Shown: positions 11,301 to 39,680 of the stretch, one piece after another | Numbering within the stretch: the first letter of the stretch is position 1 | Layout of the letters: each line of letters begins with the position of its first letter | Virus record (IMG/VR): IMGVR_UViG_3300023219_000232 | Span: 1-44,388 of that record | Length of the DNA: 44,388 nt | Origin: a virus | Direction: 5' to 3' (one strand) | Translations under genes and position numbers: made by a program | The notes under the pieces: model-generated | Told to the model about the DNA's origin: nothing | The model's database searches: none | The model's input: only the letters and a program-made list of their open reading frames with translations

Positions 11301-11956
11301 TATACCTCCAGTTCATTCAATTCGATTGCTGTATCTGAAGACATATCAACTTTAAAGGGCTGCATATTTCTTGTGGCTTCCAATTGGGGTATGTCATAAT
11401 CGGTTATTACTACTTCGTTAATGCCGAATATAGTATTTAGAAAATTTGATATGATGGTGATTTGCTGGGGTACTTTACAAATCTCTACAAGCGATTTGGC
11501 ATCATCTTCGGGATATGCGTTACCAATATTGCGTATGAATGCCGTTGGAATCAATGCCCCGGCTGTTGTTATTCCTGCATAAACAGTCCCCCCTACTATT
11601 GTGCCGTTCATTGTGATGAGAAAATCCCCGTCTGATACATGCTCTTTTATTGTGCCGTTTCTGCCCTGTATGGCTGTCTTAATAATGTTTTTTGATTGGG
11701 TTACAGTCAATAGCACGGCATGTAAGGTAAGTCCATTAAACGGAATAGGCGTGAGTTTTTTAAGATCATCCAAAGCAAAAAAACTGCCTTGCTTAATAAT
11801 GACTTCATCAAATACTGGTCTGCCCAAATAGCTCCTGACATCACTAAATTCATCGGGTGCCGATCCCTGTAGCCGGAATAAACCCGCTTTTGCCAGTTGC
11901 ACGGCAGCGCCCTTTATGGCTACCTGGGACGGAAGGGGTATCGTAAACTCTCCCAT
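11300..11956 (-). CDS. DUF6046 family tail protein
   Basis: 218 aa. DUF6046 is a Bacteroidota phage family located just after the tape measure. The visible pattern fits: SYLGRPVFDEVIIKQGSF, then ITQSK-like VTVTQSKNIIKTAIQGRNGTIKEHV, DGDFLITMNGTI, and YPEDDAKSLVEICKVPQQI. By position it should fill the Mu gp43 or distal-tail role. Function is inferred from context. Confidence 0.65.
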   Translation of the reverse strand: MGEFTIPLPSQVAIKGAAVQLAKAGLFRLQGSAPDEFSDVRSYLGRPVFDEVIIKQGSFFALDDLKKLTPIPFNGLTLHAVLLTVTQSKNIIKTAIQGRNGTIKEHVSDGDFLITMNGTIVGGTVYAGITTAGALIPTAFIRNIGNAYPEDDAKSLVEICKVPQQITIISNFLNTIFGINEVVITDYDIPQLEATRNMQPFKVDMSSDTAIELNELEV

Positions 11957-13776
11957 TATCCTGCTGTTTGTGCTGTTTGGGTATCGGTCAAAGCGGCTAA
12001 CAATGCTTCAGTCACCCCGTCTTTAACTTCCGTCAAACCCTCTTTGAAAGTTTGCGGATTAATAGTAATCATTTCTACCAATTTCTCAACGGTTATATTA
12101 AATACCTTCGGGGCAGCGCTTGTTATCCTTGTAACCCCTGGAGCTTGTTTGCCTGTTGCCGTTCCCCTCAATTCCTGTAATCGCTTTATTTCTGCTTGTG
12201 CTTCTTTAAATTCCTTGCTTCCAAGTGCGGCTTTTCCAAGTTTTGTTCTTTGTACTGATAATAATTGGGTTATTTTATTGAGTGATAATATCTTTCCTTC
12301 CTCTCTTTTTAAGTCATTAAGGCGTTTTAATGCTTCCTTTTTTTCTTTCGCAACCCTTTCGGCATCGCTTTTTTTACGTGCATCCTGTATTTCTTTCAGC
12401 CGCCTTGCCTGCCTTTCTTCCGGTGTTTCTTTCGCTAATGCCCTCTTTTTTTCCAACTCATCAAATGCTCCTTTTAATTTCTGTATTTCCTTCTTATATT
12501 CTTTAATAGATATGGCGCCTTTATTAAATTCGTCTTTAAGTATATTTAGTGCTTTCTTATTGGCTTCGAGAAATGGTATATGTTCCGTTAGTGCCTGTCC
12601 GGTTTTTCTAAGTTCTTCAGTAATCAATCCTTGTGATTCCAACATATCAAGTCCCGCATCAACCAAACCAAAAGTGGCACTTTCCTGATTGTTGAGATTT
12701 GCTATTAAATCAAGGATGGCTGATCCTACAATCGCTGCCTGGCTGGCAGTTTTTGCCATTGACCCGGTTCCGTCTTCAAAACTCAGTATAAGATTCTCCC
12801 ATGAAACACTTAAACCTTTGGCTTTTTCATCCAAGCTGCCCATGTTTATCTCGGCTTGGCTCATTGCATTTCCGACCTCATTCAGCGTGCCATCAAGTTC
12901 CTGGAATATGGCATTTTGATCTATCAGGGTAAGTAATCCTGTTGCACTTTCAAGACCAACCAACTTAACAGCATCAGCCAGCGAGAGATTTCTTTTTTTC
13001 AGTTCGGTTACGGTAGCGCTAAGTCCTACTATCGAAGGATTGATTTTTTTGTCATTCTGGGATGCTAATTTGCTCAGTACACCCCTTAATTTAGTGCCGG
13101 CTTCTGCGCCCCTTATGCCGCCTTTAGCAAGCGCCTGTATAGCTGCGTTGGTAGTTTCAAAGCTAACCCCTGCCGCTTTGGCTGCCGCTCCTGAGTTCTT
13201 TAGCGCCTCGGCTGTGTCGGCTATTATGGAGCTACCTTTCTGCTGTGAGGTTGCGAGTATATCAGTAAATCTTGCCGCGTCTTTTGCCTCTGCCCCAAAT
13301 TGGTTCATGGCGCTTGTCAGAGCATCAGCACCGGCAACGCCCTCTATCCCTGCCGCTTTTGCCAGTATAAGGGCTTGCTTAGTTACTTCTGCAAGGGCTT
13401 CTTTGTTCTTTAATAGCTCTGGCTGGGCCGAACCAACACGGGTAAATGCAGCAACAATATCAGCCGATGATGTATTAAGTTGCCCGCTCATGCTTCGGGC
13501 TGACTTTGAGAAAAATGCCATTTCCTCTGAAGCCAATCCGGTGATTGACTTGAGCGTGGTCATCTCCTTATCAAACTTTACAACAGTATCTATCGCACCC
13601 CTTGCTAATGCCGCTGCTCCGAAGGCAATTCCCAAAGCACCGCCTAACGCAAGCGCACTTTTACCCAATCCTTTCATGCGGCTATCCATAGCCCTTGCCT
13701 TGCCACTGACCTTATCCATCTTGCCAGAGAACCTGTCTCTGAGACCGATAATATATTCTACGTTTTTAGCGGGCAT
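11956..13776 (-). CDS. Tail tape measure protein
   Basis: 606 aa. It begins with a basic helical region and a Gly/Ala-rich hydrophobic segment (LALGGALGIAFGAAALARGA). Next is the TP901/PhageMin_Tail core (VVKFDKEMTTLKSITGL, NTSSADIVAAFTRVGSAQPEL, ALAKGGIRGAEAGTKLRGVLSKL). A long charged coiled-coil (about 410-550) follows, and the protein ends with a short domain. Using the usual ~0.15 nm per residue, the tail would be about 90 nm. It lies just after the frameshifting chaperone, as in nearly all long-tailed phages. Confidence 0.85.
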   Translation of the reverse strand: MPAKNVEYIIGLRDRFSGKMDKVSGKARAMDSRMKGLGKSALALGGALGIAFGAAALARGAIDTVVKFDKEMTTLKSITGLASEEMAFFSKSARSMSGQLNTSSADIVAAFTRVGSAQPELLKNKEALAEVTKQALILAKAAGIEGVAGADALTSAMNQFGAEAKDAARFTDILATSQQKGSSIIADTAEALKNSGAAAKAAGVSFETTNAAIQALAKGGIRGAEAGTKLRGVLSKLASQNDKKINPSIVGLSATVTELKKRNLSLADAVKLVGLESATGLLTLIDQNAIFQELDGTLNEVGNAMSQAEINMGSLDEKAKGLSVSWENLILSFEDGTGSMAKTASQAAIVGSAILDLIANLNNQESATFGLVDAGLDMLESQGLITEELRKTGQALTEHIPFLEANKKALNILKDEFNKGAISIKEYKKEIQKLKGAFDELEKKRALAKETPEERQARRLKEIQDARKKSDAERVAKEKKEALKRLNDLKREEGKILSLNKITQLLSVQRTKLGKAALGSKEFKEAQAEIKRLQELRGTATGKQAPGVTRITSAAPKVFNITVEKLVEMITINPQTFKEGLTEVKDGVTEALLAALTDTQTAQTAG

Positions 13777-18767: not shown

Positions 18768-20222
18768 TTATGCTGCTACTTGGTCTTCGGGATGTTTGAC
18801 ATCGTAATATGCTTCATACATTTTGCAGAACAAAGCCAGGTTCTTTTCCTTGATCTTGTTCAATCCTGCTCCGTCTTCTTTCTGCCACTTGTCAAAGTTC
18901 CAATCCTTTCTGTCTGCAGGAATCAACTCACTGCTGCCTTCACCGGTTAATTGGTCGGTTATGATTTGTGCCGGTGTCTTGAATGATTCAACAACCAATT
19001 TCAAGCCATCAAAGTTGTTTTCAAACTTCTCCATGAGTTCATCCTTTTTGGTCTTATCGACCTTGCCTGCCTTGATTGCGGTATCAATTGTTTCCTCAAC
19101 CATTGTTTTGTTCAAGTCCTTTTGCTTGTCCTCAAACGCTTTGATTGTTAGCTTTTGGGCAACAATTGTTTCGTTTGCCTCAGTCAGACTTGTTTCTGAT
19201 GTTGCCAATTCTGTTGTTTTGGTTTCGAGGTTTTTTGCAATCTTTTTGATTGCTTTAAGGATTGCGCTTTCGTTTGCATCCTCGTTCAAGCCGAGAAAAT
19301 CAGTGATAGATTTCATAGTATTGGTATTTGATGGGTTTGTGTTATGGTCAAAATTTATCGGGTTTTCGTGGTATTCGTTGGTCATTGCAAGCATCATATC
19401 AACGGTTACTTCCGTATCATTTTTGGGCTTTTGATTTGTCTTGTCAATCTTATCGATAAAGCCATGCTTGTTTTTTGCATCGTGAGCGCCAATCCAGGTT
19501 TCCGCCTCAACCATATCTGTTATTGTCTTACGGCTTTCCTTGGAGTTGTTTGTCAGGTGAGTAATGATTGAATCCTTCATCGCAATCAAACCATTCTTCA
19601 CGGTTTCATCTTCGGTTTCATCAATCGTTTCACCTGCAAGATTCGGCTCATGCACCATTATTTTTGCAAAATCTGTACTGTGCCTTGAACCTTTATTGCC
19701 TGAAACTAAAATAAGTGAAGCCATCGAAGCTGCAATTCCTACATTATGGGTATGAATTTTGGCGGATGATTTTTGATTCTCAGCTATAATGGAAAAGCCG
19801 TCAATTATACTGCCCCCCGGTGAGTTAATCCATTGGTGAATATCGGTTACTCCTTCACTTACTAATCTTGCGATTTCCCTCGCAACCTCTGTGCCGTCTA
19901 TCTCGCCTCCAACAGTACCATACAGCAAAATGTCTGCTGTCTTGTCACCGTTGCGCATATTGGTTGTAAAACCTTTCATGCCAGTTGCTTCTTCAAAAAG
20001 GGTGAATTTGATGTTGTGATCTTTGAGCCATTTTCTTGCGCGTTCAACAGTGAACCTGTCTTTTGGAAATCTGTATGATTGTGTTTTACCGCTGCCACTT
20101 GGGTCGCTTTTTAATGGTCCGCCTAAAATCTGTATTCCATTTGGTAATGTTTGCAGAGTGAGAATTCTTACAAAATTATCAGGGTCTGCTACCCTTGCCG
20201 CATGAAAATTTGGAAAAGGCAT
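18768..20222 (-). CDS. Head maturation protease fused to scaffold
   Basis: 484 aa. N-terminal ~75 residues (FPKDRFTVERARKWLKDHNI) resemble XkdF/Mu gpI-type elements. Residues ~95-255 are a ClpP-like Ser protease: INSPGG (132-137), nucleophile region GIAASMASL (Ser166), IMVHEP (His191), and WIGAHDAKNKHGFIDKI. Residues ~300-440 are a charged helical coil that fits an internal scaffold. This fusion is a known layout. It leads the capsid-tail array and has a strong promoter 4 nt from its ATG. Confidence 0.8.
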   Translation of the reverse strand: MPFPNFHAARVADPDNFVRILTLQTLPNGIQILGGPLKSDPSGSGKTQSYRFPKDRFTVERARKWLKDHNIKFTLFEEATGMKGFTTNMRNGDKTADILLYGTVGGEIDGTEVAREIARLVSEGVTDIHQWINSPGGSIIDGFSIIAENQKSSAKIHTHNVGIAASMASLILVSGNKGSRHSTDFAKIMVHEPNLAGETIDETEDETVKNGLIAMKDSIITHLTNNSKESRKTITDMVEAETWIGAHDAKNKHGFIDKIDKTNQKPKNDTEVTVDMMLAMTNEYHENPINFDHNTNPSNTNTMKSITDFLGLNEDANESAILKAIKKIAKNLETKTTELATSETSLTEANETIVAQKLTIKAFEDKQKDLNKTMVEETIDTAIKAGKVDKTKKDELMEKFENNFDGLKLVVESFKTPAQIITDQLTGEGSSELIPADRKDWNFDKWQKEDGAGLNKIKEKNLALFCKMYEAYYDVKHPEDQVAA

Positions 20223-36877: not shown

Positions 36878-37297
36878 TTATATTTCAACATTATTGGCTT
36901 TATTATCAACATTCGATTGTTGAAACATATCGCCCTGCCTGAATCTTTGGTTGTGCTGTTTTACAAGGCAATCTTTTAAATATACCTCAGAATCTATCCG
37001 GTCCTGCAAACTCTTTGTGTAGCGTTTCATGTCCTCTGAACTTGTGGCTATGTAATATCCCTTTGAATTTGCGACCAGGCAACTAACGAGGTTTTGAGTT
37101 CTTATATGATGTAGGATTTTTCGGATTCTGGCACCGCCTGTTTTTATTCCTTGCTCCTGAAAGAACTTTTGCATCTTGGAGTTGGTGACTGCGTTTTCTG
37201 CGCCTCTGTGATATTTCAATTTTGTGGCAATTGTCTGGGCAATCTTTATTTCGTCTTCGGTCAATGGCGCTGTTTGTTCTGGGAATCCTTCGATCAT
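36878..37297 (-). CDS. Winged-helix-like protein
   Basis: 139 aa. LTEDEIKIAQTIATKLKYHR, KTGGARIRKILHHIRTQNLV, LVANSKGYYIATSSEDMKRY is the phage winged-helix pattern seen next to methyltransferases and replication genes in Bacteroidota. ATGA overlap with the methyltransferase. DNA binding by inference. Confidence 0.65.
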   Translation of the reverse strand: MIEGFPEQTAPLTEDEIKIAQTIATKLKYHRGAENAVTNSKMQKFFQEQGIKTGGARIRKILHHIRTQNLVSCLVANSKGYYIATSSEDMKRYTKSLQDRIDSEVYLKDCLVKQHNQRFRQGDMFQQSNVDNKANNVEI

Positions 37298-37941
37298 TGG
37301 AACATTCGTGTTTGTGAAGTAACCTCTTTAAAGCGTTTCTTAGCTGCTTTATAGTAGTCGTGATCTATCTCAATGCCTGTAAAGTCGAAGCCCTCAATAT
37401 GGGCAGCTATTGCGCTTGAGCCACTACCTAAATGGGTGTCAAGTATGATGTCGCCTTCTTTGGCATAACGCTTTAGAAGCCATTTGTAAAGTTGAATCGG
37501 CTTTTGAGTAGGGTGCACGCGTATTTCCTTGTTTTTCATATCATGCTGCAACATTCCTGCCCACCGATATTTAACATATCTTATTGCCTTCGTAAATGAT
37601 TGATAAGCAAGTTCGCAATCTGAAAAATTATTATTTCCATTGTCTTTATGCCAGACAATTCTACCTGGGCTAAAATTCATTACATGGGTATAATAATTGA
37701 TACCCCAAATGATTTGATTTTTCGACACTCTAATTAATTCTGAAAAATATTCAATTGTAGGTATTTTCATATCCCAAGTTTCCTTCTTATACATCTGTGT
37801 TTTTGCTAATTTAGTTCGGCTTTTATTTCTATGTGCTGATTCTTTTATCCCATAAGGAGGATCCACAATAGCCAAATCAAATTCATTATCTTTGAACGAG
37901 GACAGATAATCCATGCAATCTCCGTGTATTAAATCAATCAT
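37294..37941 (-). CDS. DNA methyltransferase, N6-adenine/N4-cytosine type
   Basis: 215 aa. DPPYG (27-31, motif IV) and DTHLGSGSSAIAA near residue 166 (motif I) give the beta-class order. RVHPTQKPIQLYKWLLKRYA is the usual link. It adds a methyl group to adenine or cytosine, probably to hide phage DNA from host restriction. No partner nuclease in the window. Confidence 0.85.
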   Translation of the reverse strand: MIDLIHGDCMDYLSSFKDNEFDLAIVDPPYGIKESAHRNKSRTKLAKTQMYKKETWDMKIPTIEYFSELIRVSKNQIIWGINYYTHVMNFSPGRIVWHKDNGNNNFSDCELAYQSFTKAIRYVKYRWAGMLQHDMKNKEIRVHPTQKPIQLYKWLLKRYAKEGDIILDTHLGSGSSAIAAHIEGFDFTGIEIDHDYYKAAKKRFKEVTSQTRMFQ

Positions 37942-38428: not shown

Positions 38429-39436
38429 TCAAAGGGTTTTCGGGAATCCATCTTTTATTGCTTTGAAGATTTCCGTTGCTACTTGGGGGACTATTGCGTT
38501 TCCTAATGCATTTATTCTTTTAGCTTTGTCCAGTTCTTTGGGTATCCCATCATTATTTCTACAAAGTTCGGATGCAACCTCAATCCAGTTTCTATTCCAA
38601 TCTGTTTCATAAATACTTCGTCCAAGTGGGCTTTTTTCTCTCTCATGTCCCAATTTATTCCTTCGCTCAGGTTCTTTCCCGTGTTTGCTGTAGGGGTTGG
38701 TATTAGTTTTAGGATTGTGTCTAATCTTACCATGTGGGAGTGTTTTCCGTCCTTTGATTTTGCCCGAATTAGCCCTGTTTTTGTTCGGTAATATCTTTTT
38801 TTGTCCTTGAATCCTCCCCCTTCCGATGATGTTGATGTTGGTAACATCGAATTTATCTGTGTTGTCAGGTTTGGCATTGTCGTTCCGTTGGGATACTTCT
38901 TCATTCGTTCCTTGAACTTTTCCACGTCTTGTAGGTTTTCGGATGCTGTCGGAGTGAGCAATAATCCAAATTCTTTCTCTTTTGTGCCACGCACCGATAC
39001 CGCAAGCTGGAATATTGTAACATTCGAGCGAGTACCCTTCATCTTCCAGCGAAGTGCATATCCCGTCAAATGTTTTGCCATTGTCCATGCTGAGGATGCC
39101 AGCAACGTTTTCGCCAATAACCCAAGACGGTTTAATCTCAGAGATAACTCTAAGCATTTCATCCCAGAGGTAACGGTTATCTTCTTTGCCCTTTCGTTTT
39201 CCTGCTTGGCTGAAGGGCTGGCAGGGGAATCCTCCTGAAATAATGTCAACTGATTTGAGGTTATGTTTCCCGATTTCTCTAATGTCTTTTTCATGCACCT
39301 CTAAGTTAGGGAAATTCTTGCGTAATACCTTGCAACAAAACGAATCATTTTCATTAGCCCATACATTCTCAATCCCTGCCCATTGTGCTGCCAACCCAAA
39401 ACCTCCGATACCAGCAAATAACTGTCCATGTGTCAT
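38429..39436 (-). CDS. dcm: DNA cytosine-C5 methyltransferase
   Basis: 335 aa from the ATG at 39436, 1 base after the upstream stop. FAGIGG (7-12, motif I), SGGFPCQPFS with catalytic Cys72 (motif IV), GENVAGI (Glu109, motif VI), KRERIW (motif VIII). Motifs IX-X are at the end (NALGNAIVPQVATEIFKAI). Residues ~180-290 are low-complexity and basic, in the region that also encodes a second protein in the +1 frame (38512-39294). Confidence 0.9.
   Translation of the reverse strand: MTHGQLFAGIGGFGLAAQWAGIENVWANENDSFCCKVLRKNFPNLEVHEKDIREIGKHNLKSVDIISGGFPCQPFSQAGKRKGKEDNRYLWDEMLRVISEIKPSWVIGENVAGILSMDNGKTFDGICTSLEDEGYSLECYNIPACGIGAWHKRERIWIIAHSDSIRKPTRRGKVQGTNEEVSQRNDNAKPDNTDKFDVTNINIIGRGRIQGQKKILPNKNRANSGKIKGRKTLPHGKIRHNPKTNTNPYSKHGKEPERRNKLGHEREKSPLGRSIYETDWNRNWIEVASELCRNNDGIPKELDKAKRINALGNAIVPQVATEIFKAIKDGFPKTL
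38512..39294 (-). CDS. Protein encoded in +1 frame inside dcm
   Basis: 260 aa, entirely inside dcm. It reads like a real protein: KITVTSGMKCLELSLRLNRL, LLASSAWTMAKHLTGYALRW, K-x-KGTRSNVTIFQLAVSV, LLLTPTASENLQ, LIPTPTANTGKNLSEG and the end RLHPNFVEIMMGYPKNWTKL. The T-S-G-x-K-C, L-x-W-K, L-P-T-P-T-A and G-(F/Y)-P-x-x-W-T-x-L motifs recur in proteins I know to accompany phage dcm genes. Function is unknown. I chose the first ATG; a later start (39162, before TSGMKC) is possible. Confidence 0.65.
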   Translation of the reverse strand: MKKTLEKSGNITSNQLTLFQEDSPASPSAKQENERAKKITVTSGMKCLELSLRLNRLGLLAKTLLASSAWTMAKHLTGYALRWKMKGTRSNVTIFQLAVSVRGTKEKEFGLLLTPTASENLQDVEKFKERMKKYPNGTTMPNLTTQINSMLPTSTSSEGGGFKDKKRYYRTKTGLIRAKSKDGKHSHMVRLDTILKLIPTPTANTGKNLSEGINWDMREKKAHLDEVFMKQIGIETGLRLHPNFVEIMMGYPKNWTKLKE

Positions 39437-39437
39437 A

Positions 39438-39680
39438 TCAATAAGCCCGTTCGCCTTTTTGTAGTTTTTCAATCGCTGCCTCAATGTGGCTGACTTCGCA
39501 GATTATCTTTTCAAGTGCGTTCCATTGCTCCGGTTCCATCTTTTCCTGAAGTGCTGATAATTCTTTACTGTTTTGCTTGGTTTCATCTATATCAATTTCC
39601 GTCCTTTTGATGATAGCGTGATAATCTACCATTAATTGGCTTTGTGCTGTTCTGAGGGTGTTTATTGAGTGAGTGAACAT
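39438..39680 (-). CDS. Coiled-coil hypothetical protein
   Basis: 80 aa. HSINTLRTAQSQLMVDYHAI then LSALQEKMEPEQWNALEKII: largely helical. One base before the dcm start. Not recognised. Confidence 0.5.
   Translation of the reverse strand: MFTHSINTLRTAQSQLMVDYHAIIKRTEIDIDETKQNSKELSALQEKMEPEQWNALEKIICEVSHIEAAIEKLQKGERAY

Follow-up and report, generated by a model that had tools for sequence, protein, structure and literature searches.

Two reading frames of a phage dcm gene as probable complementary subunits of one C5-cytosine methyltransferase

The virus DNA analysed here (the window, IMG/VR record IMGVR_UViG_3300023219_000232, positions 1 to 44,388, 44,388 nucleotides) most probably encodes one C5-cytosine methyltransferase as two polypeptides from a single stretch of DNA, a reading to which we assign a probability of about 85%. 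Alpha, read in the dcm frame, would supply motif X as well as the core for SAM binding and catalysis (motifs I-VIII). Motif IX, and most likely also the target-recognition domain, would come from beta, which is read in the +1 frame from its own start codon. These two chains would bind each other in trans to give an active enzyme, and this enzyme would methylate the phage DNA, probably as a defence against host restriction. A sequence-only reading of the window had reported a 260-codon open reading frame (38512-39294) inside dcm at +1; it is indeed present, although it lies on the minus strand. The same reading treated its product as an independent second protein. Since beta carries motif IX, it is better read as a complementary subunit of the dcm-encoded enzyme than as a functionally separate second gene.

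The features of the locus can be listed as follows:

38429 to 39436, minus strand: alpha, the dcm frame, C5-cytosine methyltransferase, 335 amino acids from the ATG at 39436, with motifs I-VIII and X
39395 to 39421, minus strand: alpha motif I, LFAGIGGFG, seen in the sequence; G9, G11 and G12 invariant in alignment A4
39296 to 39301, minus strand: GAGGTG, a Shine-Dalgarno-like stretch seen in the sequence, one base 5' of the beta ATG
38512 to 39294, minus strand: beta, the nested +1-frame protein, 260 codons with an ATG start, indicated by phrog_1008, frame conservation and codon-position reversal
39209 to 39235, minus strand: alpha motif IV, catalytic loop GGFPCQPFS; beta reads EDSPASPSA in the two-frame map
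39154 to 39171, minus strand: TSGMKC of beta, in the two-frame map an image of alpha RYLWDEM on the same DNA
39104 to 39112, minus strand: alpha motif VI, ENV, invariant in alignment A4
38972 to 38986, minus strand: alpha motif VIII, HKRER; H151, R153 and R155 invariant in alignment A4
38581 to 38950, minus strand: putative target-recognition region of beta, with dN/dS low in beta and about 1 in the alpha frame
38944 to 38955, minus strand: LTPTA in beta, part of the putative recognition region
38686 to 38700, minus strand: PTPTA in beta, part of the putative recognition region
38527 to 38580, minus strand: motif IX in the beta frame, RLHPNFVEIMMGYPKNWT; alpha reads NNDGIPKELDK in the two-frame map
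38477 to 38506, minus strand: alpha motif X, LGNAIVPQVA, 3' of the beta stop; G312 and N313 invariant in alignment A4, AlphaFold helix 315-328

The dcm frame is open on the minus strand from 38429 to 39484, where a TTG is found. The ATG at 39436 is the likelier start, because the stop codon of the upstream gene closely precedes it in a TGATATG junction. The beta frame lies entirely within the dcm frame. The GAGGTG before the beta ATG is only suggestive of a ribosome-binding stretch, its spacing being tight.

Alpha has the characteristics of a C5-cytosine methyltransferase. It matches PF00145 (E=1.2e-53) and phrog_363 (E=7.9e-80), scores 161.9 bits against TIGR00675 (cut-off 100.65), and presents motifs I, IV (PCQ), VI (ENV), VIII (RxR) and X (GN) in order. 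In the AlphaFold model, built with 38 sequences, the pLDDT of the core is about 95, mostly 84-96, and the motif X helix is confident. The modelled core resembles those of M.HhaI (Z 20.9 over 183 residues, rmsd 2.9) and M.HaeIII (Z 20.7), and the motif order is shared with both; these enzymes differ in consisting of one chain, with the recognition domain and motif IX in one frame. C5-methyltransferases otherwise hold the recognition domain and motif IX at the place of alpha residues 166-300. In the alpha model, nearly all of these residues have a pLDDT below 50 and are predicted to be unfolded, and across the putative recognition region of beta the alpha chain is a polar linker. The model of alpha predicts no folded domain at the place expected for target recognition. 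The phmmer match of alpha to M.HhaI covers motifs I-VIII only and stops at motif VIII, and motif IX is absent from the alpha frame of the window.

It had been stated in the sequence-only reading that the dcm frame keeps all motifs. Comparison of the sequences shows instead that motif IX is missing from alpha and carried by beta, where it forms the C-terminal end (LHPNFVEIMMGYPKNWT, beta residues 240-256). The motif itself reads LHPNFVEIMMGYP in beta, and its counterpart in M.HhaI is KLHPRECARVMGYP. The correspondence is seen at locus L050, whose lineage keeps IX in alpha: the M.HhaI stretch KLHPRECARVMGYP is aligned there with KLNPVFVEYMMGLP of L050 alpha, which is the same motif as LHPNFVEIMMGYP of beta. 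The HMMER alignment between KLNPVFVEYMMGLPKGWV...LGNGVV of L050 alpha and KLHPRECARVMGYPDSYK...FGNSVV of M.HhaI (residues 273-312) spans motifs IX and X and is weak, at -1.4 bits as a second domain. A query joining the motif IX stretch of beta to the motif X stretch of alpha gave very weak matches only.

Beta belongs to a conserved family, and its relatives do accompany phage dcm genes, as had been supposed. It matches phrog_1008 ('DNA methyltransferase') over residues 13-258 (E=1e-22, 82 bits). Profile searches of Pfam and NCBIfam gave no family match, and sequence searches with beta and the beta alignment against solved structures gave no meaningful one. Homologues were found in phages of Paenibacillus and Lacticaseibacillus, one marine phage and many uncultured viruses. 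The relative sits at +1 within a dcm gene in 17 of the first 17 loci. In one of these, L013, a single-base break interrupts both frames; it may be an assembly error, and the locus was not used further. Frames and overlap are likewise conserved in Lc-Nu and in further loci found by the beta profile. A search of viral contigs with the single dcm protein gave no matches, and the alpha profile gave 80 loci. As this set was chosen through the alpha profile alone, its selection is unbiased towards beta. All 80 contain a nested +1 frame matching the beta profile; their longest open run has a median of 256 codons at +1 and of 41.5 at +2. These loci are the best matches to the dcm of the window, so the statement applies to this dcm subfamily and not to all cytosine methyltransferases.

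More distant nested cases include gene 58 of phage N15, Salmonella phage SEN4, Burkholderia phage BcepC6B and Bordetella phage PHB09. Nested +1 beta frames are also found in plasmid pMETHO01 of the archaeon Methanomethylovorans hollandica (L078) and in a plasmid of the cyanobacterium Nostoc (L079); in the annotation tables examined, the nested beta of both plasmids is without annotation. E. coli genomes contained no near copy of N15 gene 58. A Klebsiella relative has matches in 13 genomes, the gene being broken in the one genome inspected. A chromosomal relative in E. coli ECCTRSRTH03 (L168:555-1724) has its alpha gene annotated as two incomplete pieces.

The open +1 frame might be a mere by-product of the codon usage and the conserved motifs of dcm, with no gene behind it, and two observations agree with such an origin. 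Some beta motifs are frame images of dcm motifs: EDSPASPSA corresponds to GGFPCQPFS, and TSGMKC, which the sequence-only reading took as a motif of the nested protein itself, corresponds to RYLWDEM. In addition, synonymous permutation of alpha retains about 80 of the 189 bits (about 40%) of the beta-profile score, which makes similarity in the beta frame a weak proof on its own. Much of the BLAST similarity in this frame follows from alpha conservation; after the permutation control it was not taken as proof, and the argument is built on open frames and codon positions instead. The +1 frame stayed open in 0 of 1000 synonymous recodings of dcm (mean 7.9 stops) and in 0 of 1000 within-gene codon permutations (mean 7.2 stops). 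The longest +1 open run in dcm is 262 codons, and none exceeds 114 in the other 26 long minus-strand open reading frames of the window. The real beta-profile score exceeds every one of the ten permutations at each of the 81 loci, and the dcm of E. coli K-12, a one-chain enzyme, has a +1 open run of 88 codons and a beta-profile score of 0.1 bits. A by-product is hardly credible on these figures, and the substitution pattern, with codon positions reversed in 55 of 55 pairs, refutes it.

In a +1 overlap, position 1 of the alpha codon is the wobble position of beta, and position 3 of alpha coincides with position 2 of beta. For 55 disjoint pairs (L069 excluded), the differences beyond motif VIII, in the 3' half of the overlap, were 0.472 at alpha position 1, 0.315 at position 2 and 0.302 at position 3, position 1 exceeding position 3 in every pair (sign p 5.6e-17). 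The alpha-only DNA upstream of beta gave 0.219, 0.159 and 0.432, and the order was reversed in all 53 informative pairs. Over motifs IV-VIII, in the 5' half, the pattern is of the alpha type, with less change at position 3. Naive dN/dS values, which are pairwise counts that ignore the overlap and are hence biased by it, ranged from 0.05 to 0.56 for beta and from 0.74 to 2.48 for alpha in the 3' half, and from 0.07 to 0.64 for alpha and 0.41 to 1.84 for beta in the 5' half. For individual pairs, the 3' half gave 0.22 for beta and 0.85 for alpha between N15 and Citrobacter, and 0.05 and 2.48 between L049 and L059. Against the two closest relatives of the window the values were 0.40 and 1.01 (L005) and 0.34 and 0.94 (L006), so that the nested frame, at 0.34-0.40, is not near 1. 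The reversal between the two halves is more than a single frame would yield, and by this measure both reading frames are under selection. The earlier suggestion that the middle of dcm is freed from constraint while the other frame is selected agrees with these results.

From this we infer that beta residues 107-238 are the recognition domain, because beta is kept where IX no longer depends on it and the alpha counterpart behaves as a linker. The region includes the motif previously described as PTPTA occurring twice; the second copy is correct, and the first is actually LTPTA. The AlphaFold model of beta alone (40 relatives) has a mean pLDDT of 58 and a pTM of 0.28. Foldseek and VIA found no recognition-domain fold in it, an outcome that carries no weight since the model is of low confidence. 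A smaller role for beta would result if the published layout of M.EcoHK31I were applied here. In that enzyme, motifs I-VIII and X and the predicted recognition domain are in the large subunit and the small subunit has only IX (PMC3404938). Beta would then be a scaffold giving motif IX, and the recognition domain would be the middle of alpha, which, like the corresponding part of one-chain enzymes, does sit between VIII and X. This arrangement is considered unlikely, as alpha evolves at a dN/dS of about 1 or above in the middle region while beta is constrained, and alpha 166-300 is predicted to be unfolded. Moreover, loci of the L047 type have IX in alpha, yet their nested beta is strongly selected.

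The placement of motifs IX and X differs among lineages. In the window and most relatives, the recognition region and IX are in beta and X is in alpha. In L047-L051, L053 and L057-L061, IX is in the alpha frame and the nested beta is without it, though still selected, as the beta value of the L049-L059 pair indicates. Mycobacteriophage Rebeuca gp80/gp79 (L082:981-1974) and Arthrobacter phage Chocolat gp80/gp81 (L084:759-2856) have the beta-like region, IX and X together on gp79 and gp81, respectively, as a separate C-terminal polypeptide. The alpha frame and the nested +1 frame each hold part of the PTP-repeat region in Gordonia phage Gudmit and in prophiGD91-2. Besides the nested one, L016 (2845-3411) and the Paenibacillus bovis plasmid L080 (2513-2914) contain a second, non-overlapping beta just 3' of alpha, possibly a second specificity subunit for one core. 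We lean towards the view that a recognition and IX module changed frame relative to the core. In the 5' half of the overlap the alpha frame would be ancestral and beta overprinted; in the 3' half the beta frame would be the ancestral recognition and IX frame, and the alpha linker an out-of-frame reading of it. The border between frames would vary by lineage (IX in beta, IX in alpha, or IX and X in beta), linking the M.EcoHK31I and M.AquI architectures in one series. If the frame did change in this way, the target sequence is determined by beta, and in M.EcoHK31I, too, the recognition domain ought to be assigned to the beta subunit.

Beta is likely to be initiated independently of alpha, to judge by its start codons. 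A beta-frame ATG is found 5-35 codons 5' of the PCQ catalytic loop in 86 of 91 loci, and in the bins closest to this loop beta-frame ATGs are far commoner than +2-frame ATGs. A Shine-Dalgarno-like stretch at the beta start was observed in 19 loci only. The +1 relation of the frames, which is fixed in all loci, would also suit programmed frameshifting that fuses alpha and beta into a single long chain. Such a fusion is very improbable in view of the conserved place of beta's own ATG and the separate beta genes of L016 and L080; furthermore, beta starts 5' of the catalytic loop, and most of it overlaps the essential alpha core.

Those standalone genes, and the lack of any Pfam domain, are in turn what could be expected if beta were an independent protein with an unrelated job, such as anti-restriction or regulation, that overlaps dcm by accident. 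We regard this as slightly less probable still than a fusion, because beta holds the motif IX that alpha is without, co-occurs with alpha throughout the 80 loci, and has actinophage homologues fused to motif X.

The complementary-subunit reading can be compared with known two-polypeptide enzymes. The small subunit of M.EcoHK31I was reportedly found by Lee et al. in 1995 to be nested in the large-subunit gene in another frame. By motif anatomy, the window system is best read as a methyltransferase of the M.EcoHK31I/M.EaeI kind: alpha, having I-VIII and X and lacking IX, would correspond to the large subunit, and beta to the small polypeptide carrying IX (LHPNFVEIMMGYPKNWT, the M.HhaI alignment of the homologous stretch being weak), and beta lies inside the large-subunit gene in another frame in the window and in 80 of 80 relatives. 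An enzyme of the M.EcoHK31I type would also need both polypeptides for methylation, and its specificity would be YGGCCR. The system differs from these two enzymes in that its host is a phage, and from M.EcoHK31I in that the recognition domain published for the large subunit is placed here, on present evidence, in the nested beta. No restriction endonuclease was found among the scanned neighbours. M.AquI is split inside the variable region, with the recognition sequence and IX on the second polypeptide (PMC3404938), and in this respect resembles the window system. Its second chain also carries X, however, whereas X of the window is in the alpha frame, 3' of the beta stop, and no second polypeptide with both IX and X is encoded there. 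The Rebeuca and Chocolat pairs do look M.AquI-type, and their second chain is homologous to the nested beta family.

Both frames are already annotated in some records. PHROG 1008 and the 'g50 internal gene' of Paenibacillus phage Redbud represent the same protein family in the same nested position as beta, but the records call either frame methyltransferase or hypothetical, without stating the nested role. No paper on a nested subunit in phages was found among the open-licence papers searched. The kind of system was known, and what is new is its generality in this phage subfamily, the exchange of IX and X between frames, the two loci with an extra non-overlapping beta, and the likely placement of the recognition domain in beta. 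The sequence-only reading had called dual coding of this length rare; within this subfamily overlap is the rule, and M.EcoHK31I is a characterised precedent. Few long same-strand nested genes can be shown to be under selection in both frames, and for most of them the evidence comes from a single case. The recurrence of this overlap in phages of many hosts and in bacterial and archaeal plasmids provides a replicated natural data set on overlapping-gene evolution. These findings also imply that many phage 'Dcm' proteins recorded as complete enzymes are probably without their specificity part. Cloning that preserves the dcm frame but disrupts the nested one, as codon optimisation could, would be expected to yield an inactive enzyme.

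Other methyltransferase genes are found near dcm. The window encodes an N6/N4 methyltransferase at 37294-37941 (PF01555, E=6e-18), two genes 3' of dcm, and adenine methyltransferase genes precede dcm in SEN4, PHB09 and Lily. At 11956-13776 and 18768-20222 of the window, antisense open runs of 285 and 208 codons lie within long minus-strand open reading frames.
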